Assembly: GCA_024275975.1 (NCBI GenBank)
Contig: JAJRYC010000021.1
Location: forward strand, 1-44,837
Length of the DNA: 44,837 nucleotides
Direction: 5' to 3'
From: Nitrospirota bacterium
Lineage (GTDB): Bacteria > Nitrospirota > Thermodesulfovibrionia > Thermodesulfovibrionales > UBA6898
In this document: positions 11,258-24,775 of the stretch, piece by piece
Numbering within the stretch: position 1 is the first letter of the stretch
How the letters are laid out: the number at the start of each line of letters is the position of its first letter
Position numbers and translations under genes: made by a program
Notes under the pieces: model-generated
Database searches by the model: none
What the model saw: the letters and a program-made list of their open reading frames with translations, nothing else
What the model was told of the DNA's origin: nothing

Positions 11258-11644
11258 TTAGATACTCTTCACCTCAGTCCCCGGTGATATGAGCTTGAGT
11301 ATTTGCTCAACGTTTATCTTCACACTGTCGTTTGCAGAGCCGGAGTCGCGGAATACCACGCGCAGCAGCTTTCGCGCGGCAAGTTCTTTAACCATCTCCT
11401 CGCTAATGTCCGGCTCAAAGCATGCGTACTATTCCACTCATACGACAACTCACATTCGCATATCATCAAGGAATTCCGATGCCGGATCAAGGTCGCGATT
11501 GCGGCGCTCGTAGGCAACCCGAATAGGGCTCTGCTCATCCTTCCGCATTACTGACTGGAACTCGGCAGTAGGGATGTTTTTGCGGCTCGCGTCCTCGTGC
11601 TTGAGGGTGGCTATGGTTTTTTTAGATGAGTTCTTTTTAGCCAT
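11258..11644 (-). pseudogene. Type III DNA methyltransferase (mod) relic: N- and C-terminal ends only
   Basis: The first 64 codons (11644 to 11450) are a clean N terminus of a type III-associated adenine methyltransferase: KKTIATLKHEDASRKNIPTA and QSPIRVAYERRNRDLDP are hallmarks of a Mod subfamily different from the intact mod at 18298-20379. After several stops the same frame resumes as CFEPDISEEMVKELAARK and RVVFRDSGSANDSVKINVEQ, ending at TAA 11258-11260; this matches the C terminus of the intact Mod. The whole catalytic middle (DPPY and FxGxG motifs) is missing. It is either one gene with a large internal deletion or a hybrid made by recombination with the other mod. It cannot encode a working enzyme. 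Confidence 0.85.
11266..11425. repeat. 160-bp direct repeat (copy 1) shared with the end of the intact mod gene
   Basis: This stretch matches 18304-18464 in the same orientation, with roughly 15 differences by eye. It encodes the last about 50 codons of Mod in both places. The copies bracket about 7 kb holding the Res, DUF1016, DUF4062 and four-helix-bundle genes, so recombination between them could delete or duplicate that block. Confidence 0.85.
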
Positions 11645-11758
11645 TATCTTTATGCCTCCGACGCAAAAGAAGTGTGAAGTGAGAAGTTAGAAGAGTGAAG
11701 TAAAAAACAATGAACTTTTAGTTCACTTAACTTTACTTTATGGCTCATGTGTTACACC

Positions 11759-12133
11759 TCATATTTTTTGTTTTGTTTTTTTTATTATTGTTGTCAGGAT
11801 TGCTATGAGTTGGTTTGATTCTTCGATTAAGTCTTTCAGCTTTGGCTCTTTAACGATATCTGATGCTGCAAGCAGCCGCAACCAGTAGTTCGTTTCTCTT
11901 GCTTCCTTGCAGGCAATTGAATATTTGGACACAAAATCCGCCCGACTTTGCCCTGCCTGACCTTCTTCAACATTGGCACCAATAGAAGTACCGGATCGGA
12001 GCAGTTGATTTGCCAGAGTCCTACTCACACCATTGCCTTTATCAAGTGCCTGACATAGCAAAACCACCCGGCATGCAAACTCAAAAGTCCGCTCCGGCAA
12101 ATCCCGTCTTGGCTGTTCCATTTCACACTTCAC
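11759..12133 (-). CDS. Four-helix-bundle protein (23S rRNA intervening-sequence family), copy 1
   Basis: A 124-residue four-helix-bundle protein of the S23/IVP family. The signature LLRSGTSIGANVEEGQAGQS and YSIACKEARETNYWLRLL are both present. Members were first found encoded in intervening sequences of 23S rRNA, but most, as here, are free-standing and of unknown function, often next to restriction or repeat-rich loci. The start given is GTG at 12133; ATG at 12121 (MEQPRRDL) is equally possible and neither has a good ribosome-binding site. The GTGAAGTGTGA around the start resembles the ATGAAGTATGA that forms the start of the second copy, so a short repeat seems to supply both starts. It sits between DUF4062 and the mod relic. 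Confidence 0.88.
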   Translation of the reverse strand: MKCEMEQPRRDLPERTFEFACRVVLLCQALDKGNGVSRTLANQLLRSGTSIGANVEEGQAGQSRADFVSKYSIACKEARETNYWLRLLAASDIVKEPKLKDLIEESNQLIAILTTIIKKTKQKI

Positions 12134-12153
12134 TTTTCACCCTTCTTACTTCT

Positions 12154-13614
12154 TCATGAGCCCTTTGAGCCCTTTATGAGCCCTTTGCGATCAAAGACAT
12201 AGTATGTCCCCTTGCCTGTTGTTCCTATCTTCTCTAAAACGCCTTTTCTGACCATCTCCTCCAACTCCCTCGATGCGGTCGGTTTTGAGACGCTAAAAGC
12301 CTTCTGGTAATCCCGGTTGCTCAGGCGTTCGCTTGTCTTGGCAATCAGCACCGCTTGTCGTTGCCTGTCATTGAGCGCAAGAGATTCAATAACCTTATCC
12401 GTCAGCCAGTCGCGCCAGACCATGCTCGTAAACTCTCCACCTCGCTGTACAAAATCAGGCTCAGGCAAGGCATGGGCAAGGCTCTCCCGGATCATCATGA
12501 GTGTGCCGGTGCCATATTTTTCAATGTAACGAGCAAGAAAGAGCGCCTCGCAGATACGGGGGTTACGGGCAATTGAGCCATGGGGATGGCGCAGACTTTC
12601 CGGGGTAAGTGGTGGAGTTAGTCTGCCCGGATTCCATACTTCCACACGGTCGGCAAAGACGGAAACCTGCACAACCCCAGCCGATGAATAGTCACGGTGG
12701 GCGATGGCATTGACAACAGCTTCTCGTATTACATCAGGTGGAATCTCATAACGGACGGGGGCCTGCATGCTTTCGGCACGGGTTCCGACACTGCGATTGA
12801 TTTTTGACATAACAAAGTCTACAGCCATGTCAACCTGTTCGAAGAGCATACCCTTGAAGATGCGGTAGAACGGTACGGGGCGCTGGATCTCAGTGCCGTG
12901 AAAGTGCATACAACGCACTTCGGTTGCAGGAAGAAAGCGCTGAGGATCGCGTCCAAAAAGGAGTATTGCCGCATTCGTGGGATGATTATCATAGAGCAGG
13001 TGCAGGTGAGCAAGAACATCAGCGGTGGGAGTCTTGAGTGAAAGCGGGAACTGACGCTCACTCCTGGCCAGACGTACAAAGTCCGATACAGCCTGAGCAT
13101 CTATATCGTCCAGAGTTGCTTCAGGACAGGGTCTCTCCTCAAAGGGGCGATTTTGAATAATGCCGCACACTTCGAGATAATCCACAAGGCTTGAATAAAG
13201 AACGGTCGTCAATTCGGGAATGCTGACAAAACGTTTCCGAATCAGCTGTTGGCCGGCCCTTCGGATTAGTGACTGCATCTTTGACTGGCGGACTTTATCA
13301 TCATTACCCTTTACAAAGATAAGCCGGGGTTTACCTGTAGCTGTGGCAAGGTCAAACTCGCGCTCTGTTGGCGAGATACCCTCGGCATCTTCAAAACCGT
13401 ATTCATTTCCGAATAGACCAATGTAAACAGCAGCGTGCTCAACCTCGGTGAGATAAACAGCATCTGCATGCCTATCGCTTGCCGGTAGTTCCTCGAACAG
13501 AAAGAGATCGAAAAAGCGGCTTAATAAGGGGTCATTGCGGATAAAATCTGCAACAGCATGGCGCTCTTCGGCCATCTCCTTTTGCACGCTGCTTATGAAT
13601 ATCCTAATTTTCAT
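12154..13614 (-). CDS. DUF4062 - GHKL-type ATPase - winged-helix protein
   Basis: A 486-residue three-part protein. Residues 1-110 are DUF4062 (MKIRIFISSVQKEMAEERHA), a TIR/Toll-like alpha-beta fold often at the N terminus of defence-type proteins. The middle (about 180-400) is the ATP-binding domain annotated as RecG C-terminal-like/HATPase_c_4, with REAVVNAIAHRDYSSAG and DRVEVWNPGRL. The end (about 415-480) is a winged helix (NRDYQKAFSVSKPTASRELE). It lacks the helicase domains of true RecG. The ATG overlaps the stop of the res relic as ATGA, so it was built into that type III operon. Three GAGCCCTTT repeats at its 3' end encode the tail GLIKGSKGS. It appears intact although both R-M genes around it are dead. 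Confidence 0.85.
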   Translation of the reverse strand: MKIRIFISSVQKEMAEERHAVADFIRNDPLLSRFFDLFLFEELPASDRHADAVYLTEVEHAAVYIGLFGNEYGFEDAEGISPTEREFDLATATGKPRLIFVKGNDDKVRQSKMQSLIRRAGQQLIRKRFVSIPELTTVLYSSLVDYLEVCGIIQNRPFEERPCPEATLDDIDAQAVSDFVRLARSERQFPLSLKTPTADVLAHLHLLYDNHPTNAAILLFGRDPQRFLPATEVRCMHFHGTEIQRPVPFYRIFKGMLFEQVDMAVDFVMSKINRSVGTRAESMQAPVRYEIPPDVIREAVVNAIAHRDYSSAGVVQVSVFADRVEVWNPGRLTPPLTPESLRHPHGSIARNPRICEALFLARYIEKYGTGTLMMIRESLAHALPEPDFVQRGGEFTSMVWRDWLTDKVIESLALNDRQRQAVLIAKTSERLSNRDYQKAFSVSKPTASRELEEMVRKGVLEKIGTTGKGTYYVFDRKGLIKGSKGS

Positions 13615-14065: not shown

Positions 14066-17000
14066 CTACCGCACCAGCTCCATCAGCTTCCCATAGCTGT
14101 CGACGACATCGTATTTGACCTGGTCAGATGTGATCTTGGCAAAGAATTTTCTGGCGCAGTCTATTTTTGATTTTTCGATTTCACGGAGGTCCATCGTTGA
14201 CATAGAGCCTTTTGTCTCCGCGACAAAGTAAATATGCTTTACCTTGCCTTCTTTAAAGGCAATGGCCCAGTCGGGATTATAGTTGCCGACGGGTGTCGGA
14301 ATGAAGAAGCTCCGAGGCAGCTTGGCGTAGACAACGACTTCAGTGCTTTTATCGAGTTCTTTGACAAAGGTGCGCTCATTTTGGGAATCTGTGAAGACGT
14401 AGTCGTAAATATGCCGGTCGGCCTTGAAGGCTTTGTTGAAGTCTTCCTTTTGCTTCTCCTGGGTGAAGATGTCGATATGATGTATCTCATCCACAGGGTC
14501 ATAAGCGAGGTGCTGGACGATCACTGTGGCCTTTTGCTCGTTGATGATTCGTGCGGCCTTCTGGATGAAGTCTTCGGGATTGCTTTTATACTGGTTGAAA
14601 ACAGCCAGATTGATCTCCCCGAGAATATGCGCGATTGTGCTCCTGGTCAGTTGAGTCTCCTTGGCCACTTCTCCGATGAGATCGTACGGAACCGCGGAAT
14701 GGATCGAGTTCGAGTGGTAGGCAGTCTCGTTTTCCCTGACCTCAAAAGATTCTCCCTTTTTCAATGATTCATAAGTAGTCTGGTCGGATTGTTCGCCTCT
14801 CTGAATCGTGTATTGAAGCGGACTGACTTTTAGCTCCTTATCAATTGCCGTGACACATTTATTTATCAGCTCCTCTGTCTCAAAATGTACAGTATAGGCA
14901 GCCTTGCGGTTGATGCGGTTCCAGAGTTCTTTAAATTCTTTCTTTTCAAAGTTTGCACTCAGAGGGTTTGTTTTAGCTTTCCGGTCGTCTCCGATCTCGG
15001 GCATCTGGGCATCACTGAAGACACTGTCAATAAGTTGAAATACCTGTTCAGCATGTGGTAGCAGCTCCGGGGGAAGTTCCGCAAGCTGGCCTTCTTTCTT
15101 TGCATCGTGATACTCCTTGGTAATTTTATCGTCATCGTCTGTGTAGTCGTTTTTCAGAAGATACTTATAAATTTGCTTTGCCATCTTTGCATCCACCTCT
15201 ATATCACCTTCTGCTGTCTTGAGCACTTTACCGGCAAAATACGCCTCATCAGCAACACGCGGGCGGGAGGAGAGAGATTCGCTGATATCACGCTGCAGTG
15301 CAGTAACAAAATCCCTGTAACTTTCACTTGCAACAACCGTAAGGACATTAACCTGATGCACGGTAGCCGGATTATCCATGCGATCCCCTGTCTGGTTGAC
15401 TGATATACGCATTCCACGCCCGACCTCCTGACGGCGGGAGATTGTATTGTCGCTGTGCTTCAGGGTGCAGATTACAAAGACATTCGGATTGTCCCATCCT
15501 TCGCGAAGAGCGGAGTGGGAGAATATAAACCTGACCGGCTCATTTAGAGATAACAGACGCTCCTTGTCTTTGAGGATCAAGTCATATGCGTCAACGTCAT
15601 CCGTTTCAGTGGATCTTGCGCCGGTCTTAGGATCAACAAAGTGTTTACTTTTCTTGTCAATTGAGAAATAGCCGTTGTGAGGTTTCGCAGTTTCTATGCT
15701 TTTGAGATAGCGATTGTAGGGTGTATCTTCCAATAGCGGGATTTCATTAAGATACTGGTTGTATTCTTCTTCAAAAATTTGTGCATATTCACCGGGTATC
15801 GCAACATTGTCATCATACCGGCGATACTTGGCAACTTCGTCAATGAAAAAGAGGGAGAGAACTTTGATGCCTTGATTAAACAATACCTGTTCTTTCTCAA
15901 AGTGGGCCTTGATGGCTTCACGGATCTGAATGCGCCGGAGGGTTGATTCATTCACATCACCCGTGACCTCTCCTGCTTTCAGTTCCTCCCCATTGGTAAA
16001 ACTAACAGTGTCTCTGTAGGCGTCAATGTCGGCGACGACAAACCCTTTGTACTGGTTGAGCCCATCTGATTTATCGAAGAGATTGTCATTTTTACCCAGC
16101 TTGCGTATCACACGTTTTATCCCGTTTACCTGTTTAATCTCCATCTCCATGCGGGCGACCGGCGGCTTGCTGGCTGACACCCCGATAGATTCCAGGTATA
16201 AGTATGCGTTTGTGCCGCTGAGTCCCTTCACGGATACTCCACGTACCGCGATTTTCTTGACCAGCTTCTGATTGTAAGCATCCAGCGCGTCAAGCCGGTG
16301 GACCTTGTTATATTCGGTCTTATGTGTAGCGGAGTAGCGCAGTATCATTAGGGGATTAAACTCTTTCAAAGAGTCCAGCGTCTTTCCACCCTCCATCTTC
16401 TGTGGCTCGTCGAGGATAAGAACCGGGTGATTACTCTTGATTACATCAATAGGACGTCGTGACTGAAAATCATCCAGCTCTTCATAGATGCGCCGGGCAT
16501 CCTTGCCCCGGGCATTGAAGGCCTGAACATTGATGATCATCACATTGAGACCTGCGTCAGAGGAAAAACTCTCCAGATTGTGCAGTTGCTTCGAGTTATA
16601 GATGAAAAATCGGGTCCGCTTGCCGTATTGTTCAAGAAAATGCTCGGCAGTGATTTCAAGGGCTTTGTAAACGCCTTCGCGGATAGCAATGCTCGGTACT
16701 ACCACAATAAACTTGCTCCAGCCGTAGCGCTGATAAAGCTCAAACATTGTTTTGATGTAACAATAGGTTTTACCGGTGCCGGTCTCCATCTCAATATCAA
16801 GGTTGACCGGGCAGACCTTGTTACTGACCAGTACATTGGAGATCGGCAGGTTCTGGCGGCGCTGAACTGTTTGAATATTCTCAAGCACTTGTGAGTGAGG
16901 TATGGCGATATCACCATTTTTAAAGCCGGAGTCATCAAGCATTTTCTGCTGTAGGTCAGCTTCAACCCGTCCGGGGTCAATGCGGTATTTGGCGCCGCTG

Positions 17001-17083
17001 CTTTTGGGTTGTCCAGTAAAGCAGTCTGTAACGGACTCCACGGCATTTGTCTGATATTGCTGTTTTTTGAATTTAAGTTTCAC
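14066..17083 (-). CDS. res: Type III restriction enzyme Res subunit (DEAD-like helicase/nuclease)
   Basis: A 1005-residue Res protein, full length for the family. It would translocate on DNA with Mod and cleave near unmodified sites. Helicase motifs are Walker A METGTGKT (99-106), the DEPQ box [12 protein letters not shown] (225-228), RYSATHK (motif III, about 250) and [15 protein letters not shown] (motif VI). The C-terminal endonuclease is complete: NPDWAIAF (D938), then FVAETKGS (E956, K958), a PD-x-ExK site. It ends in TAG, directly followed by the nuclease piece of another res. The ATG at 17083 lies 84 bases after the DUF1016 stop. The usual partner order mod-res is interrupted here by the DUF1016 gene. 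Confidence 0.95.
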
Positions 17084-17167: not shown

Positions 17168-18301
17168 CTACTCGTCACCCTCTGTCTCCTTGTCGAGTTC
17201 ATGCTCTATCTCTTCAATAGAAGGCAGACTTGGCATCAGGTCCTCCGGCAGAGAATCTGTTATCTGCTGTTCCCATTCGGCTACACCGATAGGTTTGGTG
17301 TAGCCCGCAAGAGCATATTTGACAACAGTGTGATTCTTTTCTTTAACGAGCAAAAGCCCGATTGTTGACTTGTCATCGTGATGCCTAAGCATCTCATCCA
17401 CAATATTCATATACATGGTAAGCTGGCTTACATGGCCGGGTTGGAACTTGCCTGACTTTAGTTCTACTACTACATAACAGCGCAATTTCAGGTGGTAGAA
17501 CAAAAGGTCTATATAAAAGTCATCACCACCAACTTCAATGTGAACCTGTCGCCCAACAAATGCAAAGCCCTGACCAAGTTCAAGAAGAAACTTTTCCAGA
17601 TGCTCGATGAGTTTATTTTCAAGTTCCGCTTCTTTACGAACTTCTGCCGTGCCCAGAAAATCGAACAGATAAGGGTCCTTAAAAATCTGGTTTGTCATGT
17701 CGGACTCAGCCGGAGGCAGCGTAAGCTCAAAATTATTGGCTGTTTTTCCGAGTCGATTATGGAGGTTAGTGTCTATCTGTATTGCCAGGATGTCTTTGCT
17801 CCATCCATTTTCAATGGTTTGTTGAGCATACCAGAGACGCAGTTCAGGCTCTTTAAGTTTTTCCAGCAGGGTCAAGTTGCTGCGCCACGGGATTTGTGCA
17901 ACGGTACGTTGCACGATTTCCCTGTCCGGCCAGGCCTCAGCAAACTTCCTCATATATTTGAGGTTCCTGGCGGAGAAACCGTTCATTTCAGGAAAGGCTT
18001 CTTTCAGGTCTGCTGAAAGCCGGTCAATCACCTTAGCACCCCAACCAGCCTTTTCCTGTTTTTCCAGAATATCCTTGCCTGTATCCCAATACAGAAGAAT
18101 TTGAGCCGCATTAGCAGACAGGATAGTTTTCAGCCGTTCTGTCTGAATCCGCTTTTTAACCTGCAAAAGAAAGCCGGCGTAATCTTCAGGCAATTCAATT
18201 GAGGTTGCGGGTATGGGCATAATCACCGCCTCATCTCTGCTATTATCACGCCTTTTCCTGTTTTTGTTTTCGTTCTTTTTGTGTGCCTCGCTGTTGCTCA
18301 T
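17168..18301 (-). CDS. DUF1016/YhcG-family PD-(D/E)xK nuclease
   Basis: A 377-residue YhcG-type protein. After a basic, low-complexity N terminus (KKNENKNRKRRDNSRDE) comes the DUF1016 N-terminal domain (about 55-190, with WDTGKDILEKQEKAGWG and GFSARNLKYMRKFAEAWP). Then the nuclease domain follows: DDFYIDLLFYHLKLRCYVVV gives D265, and VVVELKSGKF gives E280 and K282, a complete PD-(D/E)xK site. Proteins of this family are linked to type I and III R-M loci, and one related group is the GAPS/RNA-processing type; the substrate here is unknown. The start overlaps the mod stop as ATGA (18298-18301). It looks like an accessory nuclease inserted between mod and res. Confidence 0.9.
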   Translation of the reverse strand: MSNSEAHKKNENKNRKRRDNSRDEAVIMPIPATSIELPEDYAGFLLQVKKRIQTERLKTILSANAAQILLYWDTGKDILEKQEKAGWGAKVIDRLSADLKEAFPEMNGFSARNLKYMRKFAEAWPDREIVQRTVAQIPWRSNLTLLEKLKEPELRLWYAQQTIENGWSKDILAIQIDTNLHNRLGKTANNFELTLPPAESDMTNQIFKDPYLFDFLGTAEVRKEAELENKLIEHLEKFLLELGQGFAFVGRQVHIEVGGDDFYIDLLFYHLKLRCYVVVELKSGKFQPGHVSQLTMYMNIVDEMLRHHDDKSTIGLLLVKEKNHTVVKYALAGYTKPIGVAEWEQQITDSLPEDLMPSLPSIEEIEHELDKETEGDE

Positions 18302-20379
18302 ATGACCTTCACCTCAGTCCCCGGTGATATGAGCTTGAATATCTGCTCAACGTTTATCTTCACACTGTCGCTTGCAAAGCCGGAGTCGCGAAATACCACA
18401 CGCAGCGGTTTTCGTGCGGCGAGTTCTTTGACCATTTCTTCACTTATGTCCGGCTCAAAGCATGCGGCCAAGGCGTTGTTGTCTACGAAGAATACTTCGT
18501 ATTCTCTAAAGGATGAAGTATGAGGGATGAAGTATGAACCATCAGTCTTTTTATCCTTTGCTTTTCCTTCATACTTCATACTTCCTAATTCATACTTTAC
18601 TCTGATGATTTCTTTAGAAATCGGAAGAGTAAGGTCAACGCCCCAGTCGAGCAGTACCTGAAATAGCAAATCTTCAGATATGCGGTCCTCGCGGATATTG
18701 TCGGCATAGTCAAAAAGGTCATCCTGTTTAACAGCATCAGGAGCGTAATAAACATCCTTCATGTTAGAGCTATCGACTTTTAGGACGCGGAAACCGATGT
18801 CTAAATTATGAAGGATGAGGGATGAAGGATGAGGTTTTTCATCTTTTGTCTTTTTTTCATACTTCATACTTCCTAATTCATCCTTTATCTTCTTCCCCGC
18901 CCGACGAATACGCTCTTTACCAATATCCGCTATAGTCTTGTAGCCAGCCCTAAAGGCTTCACTCTTTTCATCGCAGTTCTCGGGGAGTTGCACCATGATA
19001 AATTTGCGGTTACCACCGTCCTCGGCGTTGAGGGCTATAACTGCGTGGGCTGTGGTCGCAGAGCCAGAAAAGAAGTCGAGGATTATGTCTTTATGCTTAG
19101 TTGACATAAGCAGGATTTCAATTAAAGTATCAACCGATTTTGGTGATTGGAATATTTTTCCTTTCACATTGAAAAGCTCATTAAAAGAGGCCTGACCTTT
19201 TTCCGTATGAAATCGCTTATCTGACCATATTGATTTAACCTGCTTAGTAACCTCACCATTATCACTCAGAGCATAATTCTTTCTGTATATTTTCCAGTGC
19301 CCCTTTACTCTACGTGCTACAAGTTCATCAAGTTGTTTAGTCGCTTTATCTTCCCCCCATGTCCAACACCCTTCAAAGCCATCGTCCCAATTTGGATATA
19401 CCGCTGAAGATCCAGATGTAGGAATAATCGAAATTCCTCCTTTATCGTTTATATAAAATGGATAGTATAGATTTTTTCTATTATGTCGTCGAAACTCTCT
19501 ATGCGTGTTTCTAAGTTCTATCTCACGATATAGACCCTTCAAATCTTTAAGTCTATAGTTCTTTGAAATCTCATCTTTGGGCTTTGGAACATTTAATAGA
19601 CCTTTATCTATGGGATTCCTTGCATAAGCTAGTAGGTATTCGTGACAGTTAGCAATGTATTTATCTTGCGAACGTCCCTTCGGATTGCATAGTACTGTTA
19701 TTTGACCAATAAAGTTCCCTTCACCAAACACTTCGTCACATACTTTTTTGAGATTTTCAACTTCATTATCATCAATCGAAATAAAAATCACCCCATCATC
19801 TTTGAGTAAATTCCTTGCCAGCTTCAACCTCGGATACATCATCGTCAGCCAATCCGAATGAAACCTCCCATTAGATTCAGTATTAGCCACCATCCTGTTC
19901 CCCTCCTCATCCTTCTGGTTAGACCGCTGAAAATAGGCCTCGGTATCCTCTTTAAAATCATCATCATAAACAAAATCATTCCCCGTGTTATATGGCGGAT
20001 CAATATAAATCATCTTCACCTTATTAAGATAAGTCTCCTGAAGCAGCTTGAGGGCATCAAGATTATCCCCTTCAATAAACAAATTCTGTGTCGTATCAAA
20101 ATCCACACTCTCCTCCCGGCAGGGCCGGAGTGTCTTTGCAATAGGCGCATTGGCAGCAAGTAGGGCTTCGCGCTTACCCGGCCAGTTAAGCTGGTATCGC
20201 TCACGAGGGCCGTCAATAACTGAGGTGGAGAGTTCCTGACGGAGCTGGTCAAAGTCTATGGCCTTCTTAAGCTTTCCTTCATCATCTCGTGATTCAGTTA
20301 CGCAGTTGGGGAAAAGCTCGGCGAGCTTTCTGATATTCTCATCAGTAAAGTCAGGGGTGTGCATTTTTAATTTATCCAT
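18298..20379 (-). CDS. mod: Type III DNA adenine methyltransferase (Mod)
   Basis: A 693-residue Mod, beta-class adenine methyltransferase. The catalytic motif MIYIDPPYNTGND (DPPY at 127-130) precedes the SAM-binding motif DFFSGSATTAHAV (436-442); the region between is the target-recognition part. N-terminal IEGDNLDALKLLQETY and C-terminal FFVDNNALAACFEPDISEEM are family landmarks. Two stretches do not belong to the family: about 500-524 (ELGSMKYEKKTKDEKPHPSS) and about 594-627 (KYELGSMKYEGKAKDKKTDG and then YFIPHTSSF). They are encoded by related palindromic repeats that keep the frame open. GAGGT lies just before the ATG. The stop overlaps the DUF1016 start. The enzyme probably methylates for the Res at 14066-17083. 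Confidence 0.95.
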   Translation of the reverse strand: MDKLKMHTPDFTDENIRKLAELFPNCVTESRDDEGKLKKAIDFDQLRQELSTSVIDGPRERYQLNWPGKREALLAANAPIAKTLRPCREESVDFDTTQNLFIEGDNLDALKLLQETYLNKVKMIYIDPPYNTGNDFVYDDDFKEDTEAYFQRSNQKDEEGNRMVANTESNGRFHSDWLTMMYPRLKLARNLLKDDGVIFISIDDNEVENLKKVCDEVFGEGNFIGQITVLCNPKGRSQDKYIANCHEYLLAYARNPIDKGLLNVPKPKDEISKNYRLKDLKGLYREIELRNTHREFRRHNRKNLYYPFYINDKGGISIIPTSGSSAVYPNWDDGFEGCWTWGEDKATKQLDELVARRVKGHWKIYRKNYALSDNGEVTKQVKSIWSDKRFHTEKGQASFNELFNVKGKIFQSPKSVDTLIEILLMSTKHKDIILDFFSGSATTAHAVIALNAEDGGNRKFIMVQLPENCDEKSEAFRAGYKTIADIGKERIRRAGKKIKDELGSMKYEKKTKDEKPHPSSLILHNLDIGFRVLKVDSSNMKDVYYAPDAVKQDDLFDYADNIREDRISEDLLFQVLLDWGVDLTLPISKEIIRVKYELGSMKYEGKAKDKKTDGSYFIPHTSSFREYEVFFVDNNALAACFEPDISEEMVKELAARKPLRVVFRDSGFASDSVKINVEQIFKLISPGTEVKVI
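18304..18464. repeat. 160-bp direct repeat (copy 2), end of mod
   Basis: Same orientation as 11266-11425 and about nine bases in ten identical. It encodes the mod C terminus up to near its stop. Copy 1 belongs to the mod relic. Confidence 0.85.
18508..18596. repeat. In-frame palindromic repeat inside mod, insertion 2
   Basis: One arm holds GGATGAAGTATGAGGGATGA, the other CATACTTCATACTTCCTAAT; together they can fold into a long stem. The 25 bases at 18569-18593 are identical to 18857-18881 in insertion 1. The insertion adds about 34 residues between EIIRV and EYEVFFVDNN without breaking the frame. Confidence 0.8.
18803..18887. repeat. In-frame palindromic repeat inside mod, insertion 1
   Basis: The same repeat family as at 18508-18596: one arm with ATGAAGGATGAGGGATGAAG, the other ending in CATACTTCATACTTCCTAAT. 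It inserts about 25 residues between AGKKIK and NLDIGFRVLKVD, two blocks that are contiguous or nearly so in typical Mod proteins. Confidence 0.8.
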
Positions 20380-20393
20380 AATGACCTCTATTC

Positions 20394-20463
20394 AAAATTA
20401 TGAAGGATGAATTATGAAATATGAAAATAAGGAGCTTCATCCGTCATCAATTATACTGTATCA
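20394..20463. repeat. Palindromic ATGAAGGATGAA-type repeat before mod
   Basis: The 84-base gap between the four-helix-bundle gene and mod is filled with the same motif (ATGAAGGATGAATTATGAAA) and a partial inverse (GCTTCATCCGTCATCAATTA). A further piece covers the DUF4391/four-helix-bundle junction (20821-20847), where ATGAAGTATGA provides the start codon of the latter. At least four copies therefore lie between 18.5 and 20.9 kb. Confidence 0.7.
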
Positions 20464-20829
20464 TTAGTTAATCTTACTTTTCAGCTTTGATTTTTTTGAA
20501 ATTGTGGTGAAAATTGCAAGAAGCTGATTTACTTCATCCTGTAGATTTGCAAGCTTGTCTTTGCCTGCGGTTTCACTCTCCACCAGCAGCTCCAGCCAGT
20601 AACCGGTTTCATCAAGTTCCTTAAGGCAATCGCCAAGTTTGGCGATAAATTCAGCTTTGCTCCGGCTTCTATACGCCTCCCGGTAGTTCGCTCCGACAGA
20701 TGTTCCTGATCTCAGTACCTGCTTACCCATAACCTGCGCAATAACAGTTTCAGGCAAACTCCCATACATCCGAACAACCCTCAAAGCAAACTCTTTAGTC
20801 CGCTGCCGTAAATCAGTATCATACTTCAT
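20464..20829 (-). CDS. Four-helix-bundle protein (23S rRNA intervening-sequence family), copy 2
   Basis: A 121-residue S23/IVP-family protein: DLRQRTKEFALRVVRMYGSL, VLRSGTSVGANYREAYRSRS and LGDCLKELDETGYWLELLVE are the conserved helices. It shares this pattern with copy 1 at 11759-12133 but is not a recent duplicate. The ATG overlaps the DUF4391 stop (ATGA) and the first codons ATGAAGTATGA are themselves a unit of the local palindromic repeat. No 23S rRNA is near. A repeated association of this gene type with repeat-bearing R-M genes suggests the gene and the repeats may move together, but no mechanism is known. Confidence 0.92.
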   Translation of the reverse strand: MKYDTDLRQRTKEFALRVVRMYGSLPETVIAQVMGKQVLRSGTSVGANYREAYRSRSKAEFIAKLGDCLKELDETGYWLELLVESETAGKDKLANLQDEVNQLLAIFTTISKKSKLKSKIN

Positions 20830-21503
20830 AATTCATCCTTCATACTTAGTTCCTCAATCTTCCGCTTAATCGCATTTAACTGACCATTCATTTCCACCAT
20901 GCGGTTAAACTGTTTTTCCTTATTTATCCGGCTTTCAAGCTTGCGGCATTCTATTTCTCTACTCCGAATCTGCATCATTCGTTCGACCTGGTCTTTAAGT
21001 AACTCCTTCGGGCGCGGGGGCATTGAAATATGCTTGCGCAGCATCTGTTCGTAGAGTTTGTTCATATCGAGCGCAACAGGGAGTTCCGGGCGTTCAATGT
21101 CGACTGATTGCCATGGGGTGTCGAAGTATGCGCTAACTACCCATTTATCATGATCTGCTTCGCTCGGGCGCTTGTAAGCGGCAATACTCTTAATCTGATC
21201 TTTAAATCTTAGTACATAAAAAATCGGTACCGGAACGGCTTTGTCAATGCTCCGCAAAACTTCTTCATTCACGTCCTTTGTCCTGAGACTTATTTCAATA
21301 ATCGCAATCTCTTCAACAGGCTTTCTGATCGGCAGATTAATTGTTCGTGTTGCCAGGACATATTTCCATACGATCTGATCAATCTGCTTTACAAAGCAGT
21401 CACGTACAGCTCGGCGGGGCCGGGCCTGTTCATAGATTTTACTTTTTGGAAGCACTTTATTGTAAGCCGCTTGTTTGGGATATTTGAACATAGCCTGGAT
21501 CAT
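20826..21503 (-). CDS. DUF4391 protein
   Basis: A 225-residue DUF4391 protein. Landmarks are the N-terminal FKYPKQAAYNKVLPKSKIYE, FVKQIDQIVWKYVLATRTIN, EISLRTKDVNEEVLRSIDKA and YFDTPWQSVDIE. The C-terminal 50 residues form a charged coiled coil (about 170-220). Function is unknown; the family is commonly found with SNF2-type helicases and type III-like methyltransferases, as here, so it is probably an obligate part of that machine, perhaps an adaptor. The ATG overlaps the helicase stop as ATGA and its stop overlaps the next gene. Its last codons (SMKDEL) come from a local repeat unit. Confidence 0.88.
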   Translation of the reverse strand: MIQAMFKYPKQAAYNKVLPKSKIYEQARPRRAVRDCFVKQIDQIVWKYVLATRTINLPIRKPVEEIAIIEISLRTKDVNEEVLRSIDKAVPVPIFYVLRFKDQIKSIAAYKRPSEADHDKWVVSAYFDTPWQSVDIERPELPVALDMNKLYEQMLRKHISMPPRPKELLKDQVERMMQIRSREIECRKLESRINKEKQFNRMVEMNGQLNAIKRKIEELSMKDEL

Positions 21504-24500
21504 TCAACCTCTTGAACTACAAGGAAGGTAATGAGCTCAAAGTCATCGAGGCCTTTGATCGTATTAGCGAGCGCCGTTGTACGGCCGCCGCCAGTAAAGA
21601 GGCTCTCTATATCTTTATCTTCCTTTAGATTGATCATTGAGCGGATGGCCTGGTCAAGCAGATTAGAATAAACCTCCATTTTCCGTCCATCATCCGTTGT
21701 CTGGTTGAAAATATGACAGACATCCGGGAGCGGTAGACTGCGATCCTTGCAGGCCGAGCGAACCAGATCAAGCAGGTGCTTTACCTCTGTGTGATTGCTG
21801 ACTACACTGCCATCCTGCCCGATATAGATAAGGTAGTATGGATGGAGGCGGTTTTGTTGGTTGATATTAACCCCTTGATTACGGTTACGCAAGGTGAAGA
21901 TAACCCCAGATGGAAGGCCACGATCTGGATCAGCGGGAACAACGGCATGCATTCCACTCGGCACACCGGCCAGGTTTCCATTGGCCTTTACATAGTTGAG
22001 CAGATCCATGCGGAAATCATTGAGACCAAGGTCGGTAATAGAGACGCCGGTTTTGAGGTCTTCCATTTCAATAACCTCTTCCTGCAGGCGGCGCAGTTGT
22101 TCTTTGCGGTATGACATATCGTTGGATTTTGCATTTAACACATTATCATCGCCGGTAGCAGTAACATCGGCAATAACCATGCGGTTTTCAACCCGTTCCT
22201 TGAGATTGATATATTCGTCCAATGTTATATCCGGCCAGTAGTTGACAAGCTGAATGCATGTATTATGTGAGCCGATACGGTCGATTCGGCCAAAGCGCTG
22301 GATAATGCGAACAGGGTTCCAGTGAATGTCGTAATTAATGACGTAATCACAGTCCTGAAGATTCTGGCCTTCTGAAATACAGTCGGTGCCTATGAGAATG
22401 TCAATTTCTCCGGGTTCATCAGGAAGGATAGCGGCTTTTTCCTTAGAACGCGGGGAGAAGAGAGTTAGCAAGGAGTGAAAGTCGTAGCGTTTCCTGAGTG
22501 TGGACTTCGGACTCCCAGAGCCGATGACCATGCCGGTGTGAAGCTGGCGGGTATCCAGCAGACTATCAGCGAGGTTCTTGTAAAGATAATTGGCCGTGTC
22601 CGCAAAGGCAGTAAAAATCAGGACTTTCTTGTTCCCCGGATTTATGGGAGATGCAAGCTTGCTGCCGATCTGGATTTTCAGGTGCTGGAGTTTGGCGTCG
22701 TCTTTAGTAGTGATCTTAAGCATTTCAGAAAGAAGCGTGTCTATCACAGCAAGGTCAGCCTTTAAATCATGCCCCCAGGAGGTTAAGTCCATATCTGATA
22801 AGCTGATCTGTACCTTACCGCCAATCCTGTCATCATCGGGCTCGGGAAATTCGTCTTCGTCAGGCTCGGCATTTTCATACGCAGCGGCTAGGTCAGAAAA
22901 ACTTGCATCACTTCCAGTCCGTTTGAACGCCTCGATCTTTGAGAGTGTGTTCTGATGATTGTTTTTAAGGCGTTGCAAAGTTAGCCGGAAAGCTTCAACA
23001 GAACTCTCAAGGCGTTTGAGCAGGTTCACCGTCATGAGGGCCTGGAGACTTCTTTCCCTGTCAACCTGCTTAAGCCTGCCCCTGCCGCCTCCGACCTCGG
23101 TGTCGTAGAGTTCTTCATATTTAGCAAGACGGCTCGGAAGGATGTAGTTGACCGGTGCATAAACGGCCATCTTCAATAATGACAGCTGAGCGAAAATGTC
23201 ATTAAATCCGATGACGTCCGTCCGATGCGTCAGCTGACAATGGAATGATTGCGGCTTAAGTCGTTCAGGGAAATGGCCTATTTCATTCGTATCGTAAAAA
23301 GTCTCAATATGCCTGCGCGATCGGGCGATTGTTACGCTGTCAAGCAACTCGAAAAAATCAAAATCCAGCGCATTAAGAATGGTAGCTGCTGTGCGCTCTT
23401 CCGGAGGCAACGTAGTCCATTTATTAAAGGTGGCCTGTGCTTTACGGAATATTTCTTCAATATTTTTCCCGGTGCGAAGCTTCTCGCTGAGATTTTCGGA
23501 CTCCCCTTCGTAAGCGAGTGCGAGCTGGTTGCGCAGGTCATTAAAACGATTATTGACCGGCGTGGCTGAGAGCATCAGGACTTTGGTCTTGACGCCTTCT
23601 TTTATTACGGCGCGCATCAGCTTCTGATAACGTGTTTCCCTGTCTTTAAATACATCGTTATTGCGAAAGTTGTGTGATTCGTCGATCACTACGAGGTCGT
23701 AATTACCCCAATTTATACGATTGAGCGGTGTGCCGAATGATTCACCTCTGGTTCTTTGAAGGTCGGTGTGACACAGGACATCATAATTAAACCGGTCTTT
23801 GGCAAAGATGTTCGTTTTCAGATTTCGATTATAGTTCAGCCAGTTGTCAGCGAGTTTTTTGGGACAAAGAACAAGGACAGAGCGGTTACGCAATTCATAA
23901 TATTTAATGACTGCAAGGGCGGTAAAGGTCTTTCCGAGCCCTACGCTATCGGCAAGAATACAGCCGCTGTAGGTTTCCAGTTTATTGATAATGCCGGTGG
24001 CGGCGTCTCGCTGAAAGTTGAAGAGCTTTTGCCAGATGAGACTGTTTTCATAGCCAGTAAGATCATTTGGCAGTACATCTTCACTAATATCCGCTAAAAA
24101 CTCGTTAAAGATATTGTAAAGCATCAGAAAATAGATGCGCTCAGGGGAGTTTTCCTGATAAACCGAGGCGATGTGATCACACAAGCGTGATGTGACGTCT
24201 TCGATCTTGTCCGGATCGTTCCAGATTTGATCGAAGAGGTTCAACCATACCCCTGTCGTTGATGGTTCGTCCATTTTATTGACGATATTCGATACGGCAT
24301 CTCCCTGCTGGTAGCCAAGGTCAACTGCAGTGAAACCGTGAAGTGGAAGGTAAACGGCTACGGAATCGGCAGTTTTAACGCATGCGAACTGCTGCATGGG
24401 AGCCTTGCCGTGGTTGGAGCGAAATGTGGCCTTGCGGCGCATCCAATCTGCACATTCTTTGGCAATGGCGCGCTGGGTGAGTTTGTTTTTGAGCTGTATT

Positions 24501-24775
24501 TCAAATTCGCTACCATAGAAACTCCGCTCACGATCTTTCTGGGGAATATGAAACTCACGGCGTTCTTTTTTTATTTGATCGGTGACTTCATCCGGCACAA
24601 AGGTCGGCGAGGTAAAAATAAATTCAAGAGACTCGATGCCCTCCAGCTCCTCCTTGAGGGCTTCAAAGGCGTAGATCGAGAAACATGATGCTGCAATCTT
24701 CAGCTTCGCTCCGGAGGTAACGGTCTGCTTCAGGTTGTCGCCGAGCAAATGATTTATGTTATCAATTATTTCCAT
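21500..24775 (-). CDS. PLD-like/SNF2 superfamily 2 helicase of the defence island
   Basis: A 1091-residue helicase. The N-terminal 100 or so residues follow the phospholipase D-like fold seen in this family (SGAKLKIAASCFSIYAFEAL), but I find no HxKxxxxD catalytic motif. The SF2 motor has Walker A LADSVGLGKTFTAL (275-282), DESH in LVVIDESHNFRN (365-368), MLSATPVNNRFNDLRNQL (403-406) and, in the second lobe, TDCISEGQNLQDCDYVINYD and IIQRFGRIDRIGS (about 827-836). A long charged insertion (about 600-650, EPDEDEFPEPDDDR) separates the lobes. It probably remodels or translocates on DNA for the system. It is the first gene of the run; its stop overlaps DUF4391 (ATGA). No good ribosome-binding site precedes the ATG. 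Confidence 0.93.
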   Translation of the reverse strand: MEIIDNINHLLGDNLKQTVTSGAKLKIAASCFSIYAFEALKEELEGIESLEFIFTSPTFVPDEVTDQIKKERREFHIPQKDRERSFYGSEFEIQLKNKLTQRAIAKECADWMRRKATFRSNHGKAPMQQFACVKTADSVAVYLPLHGFTAVDLGYQQGDAVSNIVNKMDEPSTTGVWLNLFDQIWNDPDKIEDVTSRLCDHIASVYQENSPERIYFLMLYNIFNEFLADISEDVLPNDLTGYENSLIWQKLFNFQRDAATGIINKLETYSGCILADSVGLGKTFTALAVIKYYELRNRSVLVLCPKKLADNWLNYNRNLKTNIFAKDRFNYDVLCHTDLQRTRGESFGTPLNRINWGNYDLVVIDESHNFRNNDVFKDRETRYQKLMRAVIKEGVKTKVLMLSATPVNNRFNDLRNQLALAYEGESENLSEKLRTGKNIEEIFRKAQATFNKWTTLPPEERTAATILNALDFDFFELLDSVTIARSRRHIETFYDTNEIGHFPERLKPQSFHCQLTHRTDVIGFNDIFAQLSLLKMAVYAPVNYILPSRLAKYEELYDTEVGGGRGRLKQVDRERSLQALMTVNLLKRLESSVEAFRLTLQRLKNNHQNTLSKIEAFKRTGSDASFSDLAAAYENAEPDEDEFPEPDDDRIGGKVQISLSDMDLTSWGHDLKADLAVIDTLLSEMLKITTKDDAKLQHLKIQIGSKLASPINPGNKKVLIFTAFADTANYLYKNLADSLLDTRQLHTGMVIGSGSPKSTLRKRYDFHSLLTLFSPRSKEKAAILPDEPGEIDILIGTDCISEGQNLQDCDYVINYDIHWNPVRIIQRFGRIDRIGSHNTCIQLVNYWPDITLDEYINLKERVENRMVIADVTATGDDNVLNAKSNDMSYRKEQLRRLQEEVIEMEDLKTGVSITDLGLNDFRMDLLNYVKANGNLAGVPSGMHAVVPADPDRGLPSGVIFTLRNRNQGVNINQQNRLHPYYLIYIGQDGSVVSNHTEVKHLLDLVRSACKDRSLPLPDVCHIFNQTTDDGRKMEVYSNLLDQAIRSMINLKEDKDIESLFTGGGRTTALANTIKGLDDFELITFLVVQEVE

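Follow-up and report, generated by a model that had tools for sequence, protein, structure and literature searches.

In-frame heptamer palindromes in a Nitrospirota type III DNA methyltransferase gene and their likely relation to an S23-bearing hairpin element

The IVS in the 23S rRNA of Coxiella burnetii is 428-444 nt long, contains an S23 ORF and forms a 28-bp stem with a folding energy of -143 kcal/mol (PMC4990558). Tandem heptamers precede the start of its S23 ORF, and RNase III excises the IVS (PMC4990558). Short palindromes inserted in frame into protein-coding genes have been described in Rickettsia (RPEs) as dispersed families of ~150 bp with a conserved peptide. Tandem units of seven bases form the heptameric STRR, GGGAATC and TAACTGA repeats of Nostoc, Xanthomonas and Beggiatoaceae, which two papers treat as mainly intergenic and do not connect with S23 ORFs (PMC4692102, PMC4679880); convergent inverted heptamer pairs have been noted in Xanthomonas. 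MITEs and REP/RAYT systems include small copies that derive from a larger element, have inverted ends and lack an ORF.

We know of no function of S23 proteins outside their relatives that are accessory to retroelements. Here, we analysed a stretch of 44,837 nucleotides from a Nitrospirota bacterium (contig JAJRYC010000021.1; the window), in which a restriction-modification operon contains an S23 element and the type III methyltransferase gene mod carries two palindromes. The S23 element resembles the 23S rRNA IVS in its S23 ORF, its length of about 430-450 nt, its terminal inverted repeats and its stem of 26-28 bp, and the Coxiella IVS also in its folding energy near -143 kcal/mol and the tandem heptamers beside the S23 start. 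Unlike the 23S rRNA IVS, it is located in a restriction-modification operon and not in rRNA, its two arms both consist of heptamer arrays, and ORF-less copies lie in frame within a protein. The inserts in mod share with RPEs that they are short palindromes in frame in a protein-coding gene, with the heptameric repeats the 7-base tandem unit, and with MITEs and REP/RAYT the small ORF-less copies with inverted ends. They differ from RPEs in being neither dispersed nor conserved and in their link to S23, which also sets them apart from the STRR-type repeats. In contrast to MITEs and REP/RAYT, S23 elements have no known transposase, and the presence of S23 does not track reverse transcriptase.

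Heptamer repeats, S23-bearing IVSs and protein-coding palindromes are thus each already known; a literature search of mainly open-access journal papers yielded no paper joining the three, and their joining may be new here. For S23 together with heptamer repeats, only the Coxiella IVS paper (PMC4990558) was found, and an earlier description is possible.

The palindromes in mod and the S23 element beside it

The type III restriction-modification locus lies on the minus strand of the window. The features discussed here are:

11666-12156 (-): second S23 element, with a GTGAAGT-type unit, around ORF 11759-12133 (-)
14066-17083 (-): Res subunit
17168-18301 (-): YhcG/DUF1016 nuclease
18298-20379 (-): mod, type III DNA methyltransferase, 693 aa, holding both inserts
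18507-18599 (-): insert 2, ORF-less heptamer hairpin with arms 18507-18538 and 18568-18599
18568-18593 (+): 26-base core in insert 2, with the sense arm on the reverse strand
18800-18888 (-): insert 1, ORF-less heptamer hairpin
18856-18881 (+): 26-base core in insert 1
20391-20850 (-): complete S23 element, heptamer arm + S23 ORF + heptamer arm
20464-20829 (-): S23/four-helix-bundle protein, 121 aa (PF05635, E 2e-19)
20826-21503 (-): DUF4391 gene, its final codons (MKDEL-stop) supplied by the left arm of the S23 element
21500-24775 (-): HKD/SNF2-type helicase

Mod matches PF01555 (E 4e-33), the PDB entries 6k0w, 4zcf and 7dsu, and the PADLOC model MTase_III (E 2e-224), whose 621 positions cover all residues 1-693. 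The best match of the helicase is the PADLOC HKD+Snf2 model C3a139, and the gene may belong to an additional defence system attached to the type III operon.

Both inserts are imperfect palindromes, inserted in frame as RPEs are, and an earlier note on this DNA had described them as two related palindromic elements that add peptides to Mod with the frame intact. This description was confirmed: the inserts are 81% identical over 84 nt (18516-18599 versus 18804-18887), lie 288 bp apart and leave the 693-aa ORF unbroken. They share the core TTCATACTTCATACTTCCTAATTCAT, which comprises 26 identical bases and not 25 as counted before; for a 24-base version of it, shuffled sequences gave an expectation of 0 matches. 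The building units of both are the heptamers ATGAAGT, ATGAAGG and ATGAATT, and the inverted arms of insert 2 (18516-18599) measure 32 nt with 84% complementarity. Insert 1 encodes the peptide KDELGSMKYEKKTKDEKPHPSSLILHN (aa 499-525), and insert 2 approximately RVKYELGSMKYEGKAKDKKTDGSYFIPHTSSFREYE (aa 593-628). As RNA, the two hairpins fold with z-scores of -2.4 and -2.8 relative to shuffles. No remnant of an S23 ORF was found in either.

The palindromes are present where the earlier note had placed them, between 18508 and 18887, but the repeats extend past this interval and recur at 20391-20428 (+) and 20818-20850 (-). These two arrays, 1.5 kb from the inserts in mod, are inverted around the S23 ORF, whose start codon lies within the left arm; in the lag-7 scan they span 20396-20428 and 20818-20848. 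Tandem direct units of seven bases, as in the heptameric STRRs, are a feature of the window, with lag-7 arrays at seven places, one array at lag 5 and none at lag 6 or lags 8-11. The proposal that the core might recur inside other genes was not borne out: copies of core or heptamers with 0-1 mismatch were found nowhere in the 2.5-Mb genome outside 18507-20850, and weaker heptamer matches elsewhere were no commoner than those of a reversed control pattern.

When transcribed, the S23 element forms a 26-bp arm-arm stem (MFE -142.6 kcal/mol, z -4.6). With its PF05635 ORF and complementary ends joined in a long stem, it has the features of an S23-bearing IVS; it is not situated within 23S rRNA but between DUF4391 and mod, and the window gave no Rfam match. 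The genome with the nearest Mod homologue, a Nitrospirae groundwater MAG (L035), provides an empty site, with about 20 bp between the end of DUF4391 and the start of mod and a DUF4391 homologue that terminates in ENLSA-stop. L035 lacks the S23 element as well as insert 2 and carries insert 1. A clear target-site duplication was not found at this one empty site.

The ORF of the second S23 element likewise matches PF05635 (E 7e-21), and a lag-7 array lies at 11666-11700. This element adjoins a fragment of a second mod C-terminus (11264-11431, minus strand), 88% identical to Mod 637-692, which seems to be left over from a restriction-modification locus that was duplicated or replaced. A further S23 ORF of this genome (G000:C2:121-524) has a ATGAACCC-type heptamer array ~75 bp downstream.

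Homologues, structural model and reading frame

We aligned Mod with 46 homologues, a few of which are truncated. Insert 2 was found in none of them, and insert 1 only in L035 (64% aa identity), so that of the two gaps expected from the earlier note, that of insert 2 appeared in all homologues and that of insert 1 did not. In the L035 DNA, the site of insert 2 is cleanly uninserted, and against it the net gain in the window is about +32 aa. The L035 copy of insert 1 differs from that of the window by an indel of 6 nt that keeps the frame. Among the other homologues, the site-1 loop differs in length.

In an AlphaFold model of Mod (mean pLDDT 77), both inserts have values near 50 and are flanked by well-predicted elements. 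Insert 1 links helix 483-503 to strand 530-537, and insert 2 lies in the turn between the strands E587-596 and E623-632. A different, G/C-rich repeat encoding peptides like LTPPSPPLLKGGKGG occurs, apparently in frame, in the Mod of locus L090 and the QueC of L258; in the former it sits near the site of insert 2.

The suggestion that the units are open in several frames and are tolerated for this reason did not hold, as only one of the six frames, that of Mod, is open in each insert and the other five contain stops. Exact ATGAAGG/T/ATGAATT arrays have a TGA in every frame each 21 nt, and the only stop-free strand of the heptamers is CCTTCAT/ACTTCAT, opposite ATGAAGG and ATGAAGT. The sense arms of both inserts, including the copy in L035, read TTAGGA, whereas the arm of the S23 element and those of the related locus L132 read TTATGA. 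In Mod, TTATGA would be an in-frame stop; at the S23 site, its TGA serves as the stop of DUF4391. The TTAGGA variant is consistent with selection for translation, although the sites are too few for a selection test.

S23 loci and ORF-less hairpins in other genomes

S23 loci were sampled from the order of the window (inferred as Thermodesulfovibrionales, Nitrospirota) as well as from plasmids, among them cyanobacterial and chloroflexotal ones. A common arrangement, both in related genomes and across other phyla, is an S23 ORF enclosed by inverted arrays of 6-9-base units. Arrays on both sides had a period of 7 at 36 and a period of 8 at 14 of the 119 S23 loci with full flanks, compared to 0 of 774 control (dummy) intervals in the same genomes, with thresholds set by the author and related loci counted as independent, here as in the comparisons below; over half of the S23 loci showed no detectable arrays on both sides. 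Where arrays were present on both sides (n=56), the arms matched inverted, i.e. at 17 or more of 20 positions, within the same element in 62.5% of cases and across elements in 3%. Therefore, each element has its own unit.

Homology was limited to the ORF and arms in 31 pairs of S23 loci, while ten were also similar in their flanks. In 81% of the pairs sharing only the element, compared to 1.3% of random pairs, one member's 5' arm matched the other's 3' arm in reversed form, and the unit therefore travels with the S23 lineage. It was shared in 92% of S23 pairs that are at least 70% identical. Sharing was seen only above about 55% S23 identity, and over all S23 pairs the Mantel test lacked significance (r 0.03). 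Copying of the unit from each new target was considered and abandoned, since related S23 elements share their unit at different places. The nearest relative of the window's S23 protein is that of a Chlorohelix locus (L101; 62%), on a Chloroflexota plasmid between genes for a helicase and a DNA methylase. Both this locus and L132, at 52%, use the same ATGAAGG/ATGAATT unit. Comparison of the S23 loci shows that ORF and arms are mobile as a unit; transposition within a single strain was not observed.

We counted 27 ORF-less heptamer hairpins, too short to hold S23 and some of them in overlapping pairs, within 388 kb surrounding S23 ORFs; 324 kb of control sequence taken from these genomes contained 0. 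L132 combines a partial S23 element with two of these hairpins, whose left arm is nearly identical to the arm in the window; they lie in a pseudopilin operon, where leader peptides are formed. As in MITEs, the ends of the hairpins in mod correspond to those of a larger related element: they have the same heptamers as the S23 element and L132, and an arm nearly identical to theirs. Conserved proteins of related genomes carry in-frame insertions too, one of about 40 aa in a GDP-fucose synthase and others in a DNA methylase and in a histidine kinase. Heptamer arrays were seen within TsaD, QueC, CbiD, a helicase and a NuoG/formate-dehydrogenase-like protein. Compared with solved structures, the peptides in GDP-fucose synthase, TsaD, QueC and CbiD are alignment gaps. 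In an Akkermansiaceae mod gene (L071), a complete S23 element with a different heptamer occupies the loop of insert 1. The mod frame stays open across this element as far as an assembly gap in the right arm, and L071 is the only S23 locus in which another forward frame besides that of S23 is open across the ORF.

Several loci show further associations. In L146, L151 and L181, an ArsA-like ATPase begins in frame with the octamer arm of an S23 element; L146 and L151 differ there by six units (48 nt), and the frame is kept. S23 elements repeatedly adjoin cas1/cas2 genes or CRISPR-like repeats (L100, L103, L126, L132, L145), and others sit between genes of restriction or defence operons. L117 and L154 have homologous flanks with dissimilar S23 ORFs and arms at one place, which suggests either repeated use of one site or replacement.

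Searches of viral contigs with peptide patterns confirmed no S23 relatives. Reverse transcriptase was present in 34 of 80 S23-bearing genomes and showed no association with S23 (Fisher p 0.27), so dependence on it was rejected. Y1 transposase was associated with S23 (p 1e-4), yet 16 S23-bearing genomes had no match to it; both association tests ignore phylogeny and genome completeness. Neither enzyme was matched in 12 S23-bearing genomes, many of which are drafts.

Origin of the inserts and alternative explanations

We consider it likely that an S23 hairpin element of the rRNA-IVS type gave rise to the palindromes in mod, as ORF-less, MITE-like derivatives that are translated as loop extensions. 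For the S23 element itself, the best explanation is a mobile hairpin of roughly 450 bp, the counterpart in a protein operon of the 23S rRNA IVS. That the hairpins share the heptamers but hold no ORF remnant counts against this derivation, which we infer in preference to an independent assembly from the same heptamers. The missing target-site duplication, the many S23 loci without arrays on both sides and the variable length of the site-1 loop in Mod also speak against it. The copies in mod would have arisen through loss of the ORF or through trans-mobilisation of the arms, and insert 2 probably descended from insert 1, as their 26-base core, TTAGGA variant included, is identical. The inserts appear to be tolerated and translated rather than removed, because they are in loops between secondary-structure elements, have a length that is a multiple of three and lack an in-frame TGA. 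It may be speculated, as the weakest step, that the S23 protein recognises the repeat hairpin of its own lineage and aids the spread of the element.

The inserts could instead be plain heptanucleotide microsatellites of the STRR kind, grown by slipped-strand mispairing in tolerant loops, with S23 a coincidental neighbour. Heptamer arrays do occur in cyanobacteria, Xanthomonas and Beggiatoaceae without a reported link to S23 (PMC4692102, PMC4679880), and some of the in-frame arrays in TsaD, QueC and CbiD are single-armed. Inverted arms with element-specific units, the absence of the entire 450-bp unit from the empty site in L035, homology limited to ORF and arms, and the count of 27 hairpins near S23 against 0 in control make this explanation unlikely. 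Removal of the inserts from the RNA, by analogy with the RNase III excision of the 23S rRNA IVS, would yield a Mod protein without the peptides; it is suggested by hairpins that fold better than shuffles and by the likeness of the folded S23 element to the excised Coxiella IVS (PMC4990558). We regard it as very unlikely, given that a cut by RNase III without religation breaks the mRNA, and that the open frame, the stop-avoiding base and length changes in multiples of three, among them the 6-nt indel in L035, have all been kept.

An independent family of RPE-like palindromes, unrelated to S23, would produce the same outcome, since RPEs are in-frame palindromes in unrelated proteins (PMC10969869). 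To this extent the comparison with Rickettsia made in the earlier note is apt, but the inserts have no RPE-type conserved sequence or peptide, are not dispersed in this genome and are tied to the S23 ORF by units common to the S23 element of the same operon and to the elements of its nearest S23 relatives, which renders such a family highly improbable. The variable length of the site-1 loop among homologues would fit ordinary segments of Mod. This reading is barely tenable, as both inserts consist of inverted heptamers and insert 2 is found in no homologue, L035 being uninserted at that site. With insert 1 confined to the nearest homologue, the earlier view that the peptides are not ordinary protein segments was upheld.

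The derivation from an S23 hairpin element would link the S23 proteins of rRNA IVSs, the heptanucleotide repeats of many bacteria and Rickettsia-like protein-coding palindromes, which have so far been viewed as separate matters. More tentatively, and with somewhat less than even confidence, S23 may be the marker of widespread mobile hairpins outside rRNA, with lineage-cognate arms of 6-9-base units and no known transposase or reverse transcriptase, whose ORF-less copies repeatedly extend loops of conserved proteins in frame and would thus be a continuing source of new protein sequence. If the derivation from an S23 hairpin element is right, S23 proteins can be tested for a role in binding the repeats of mobile hairpins, and a source of recurrent in-frame peptide insertions into enzymes such as TsaD, QueC and DNA methyltransferases would be identified.
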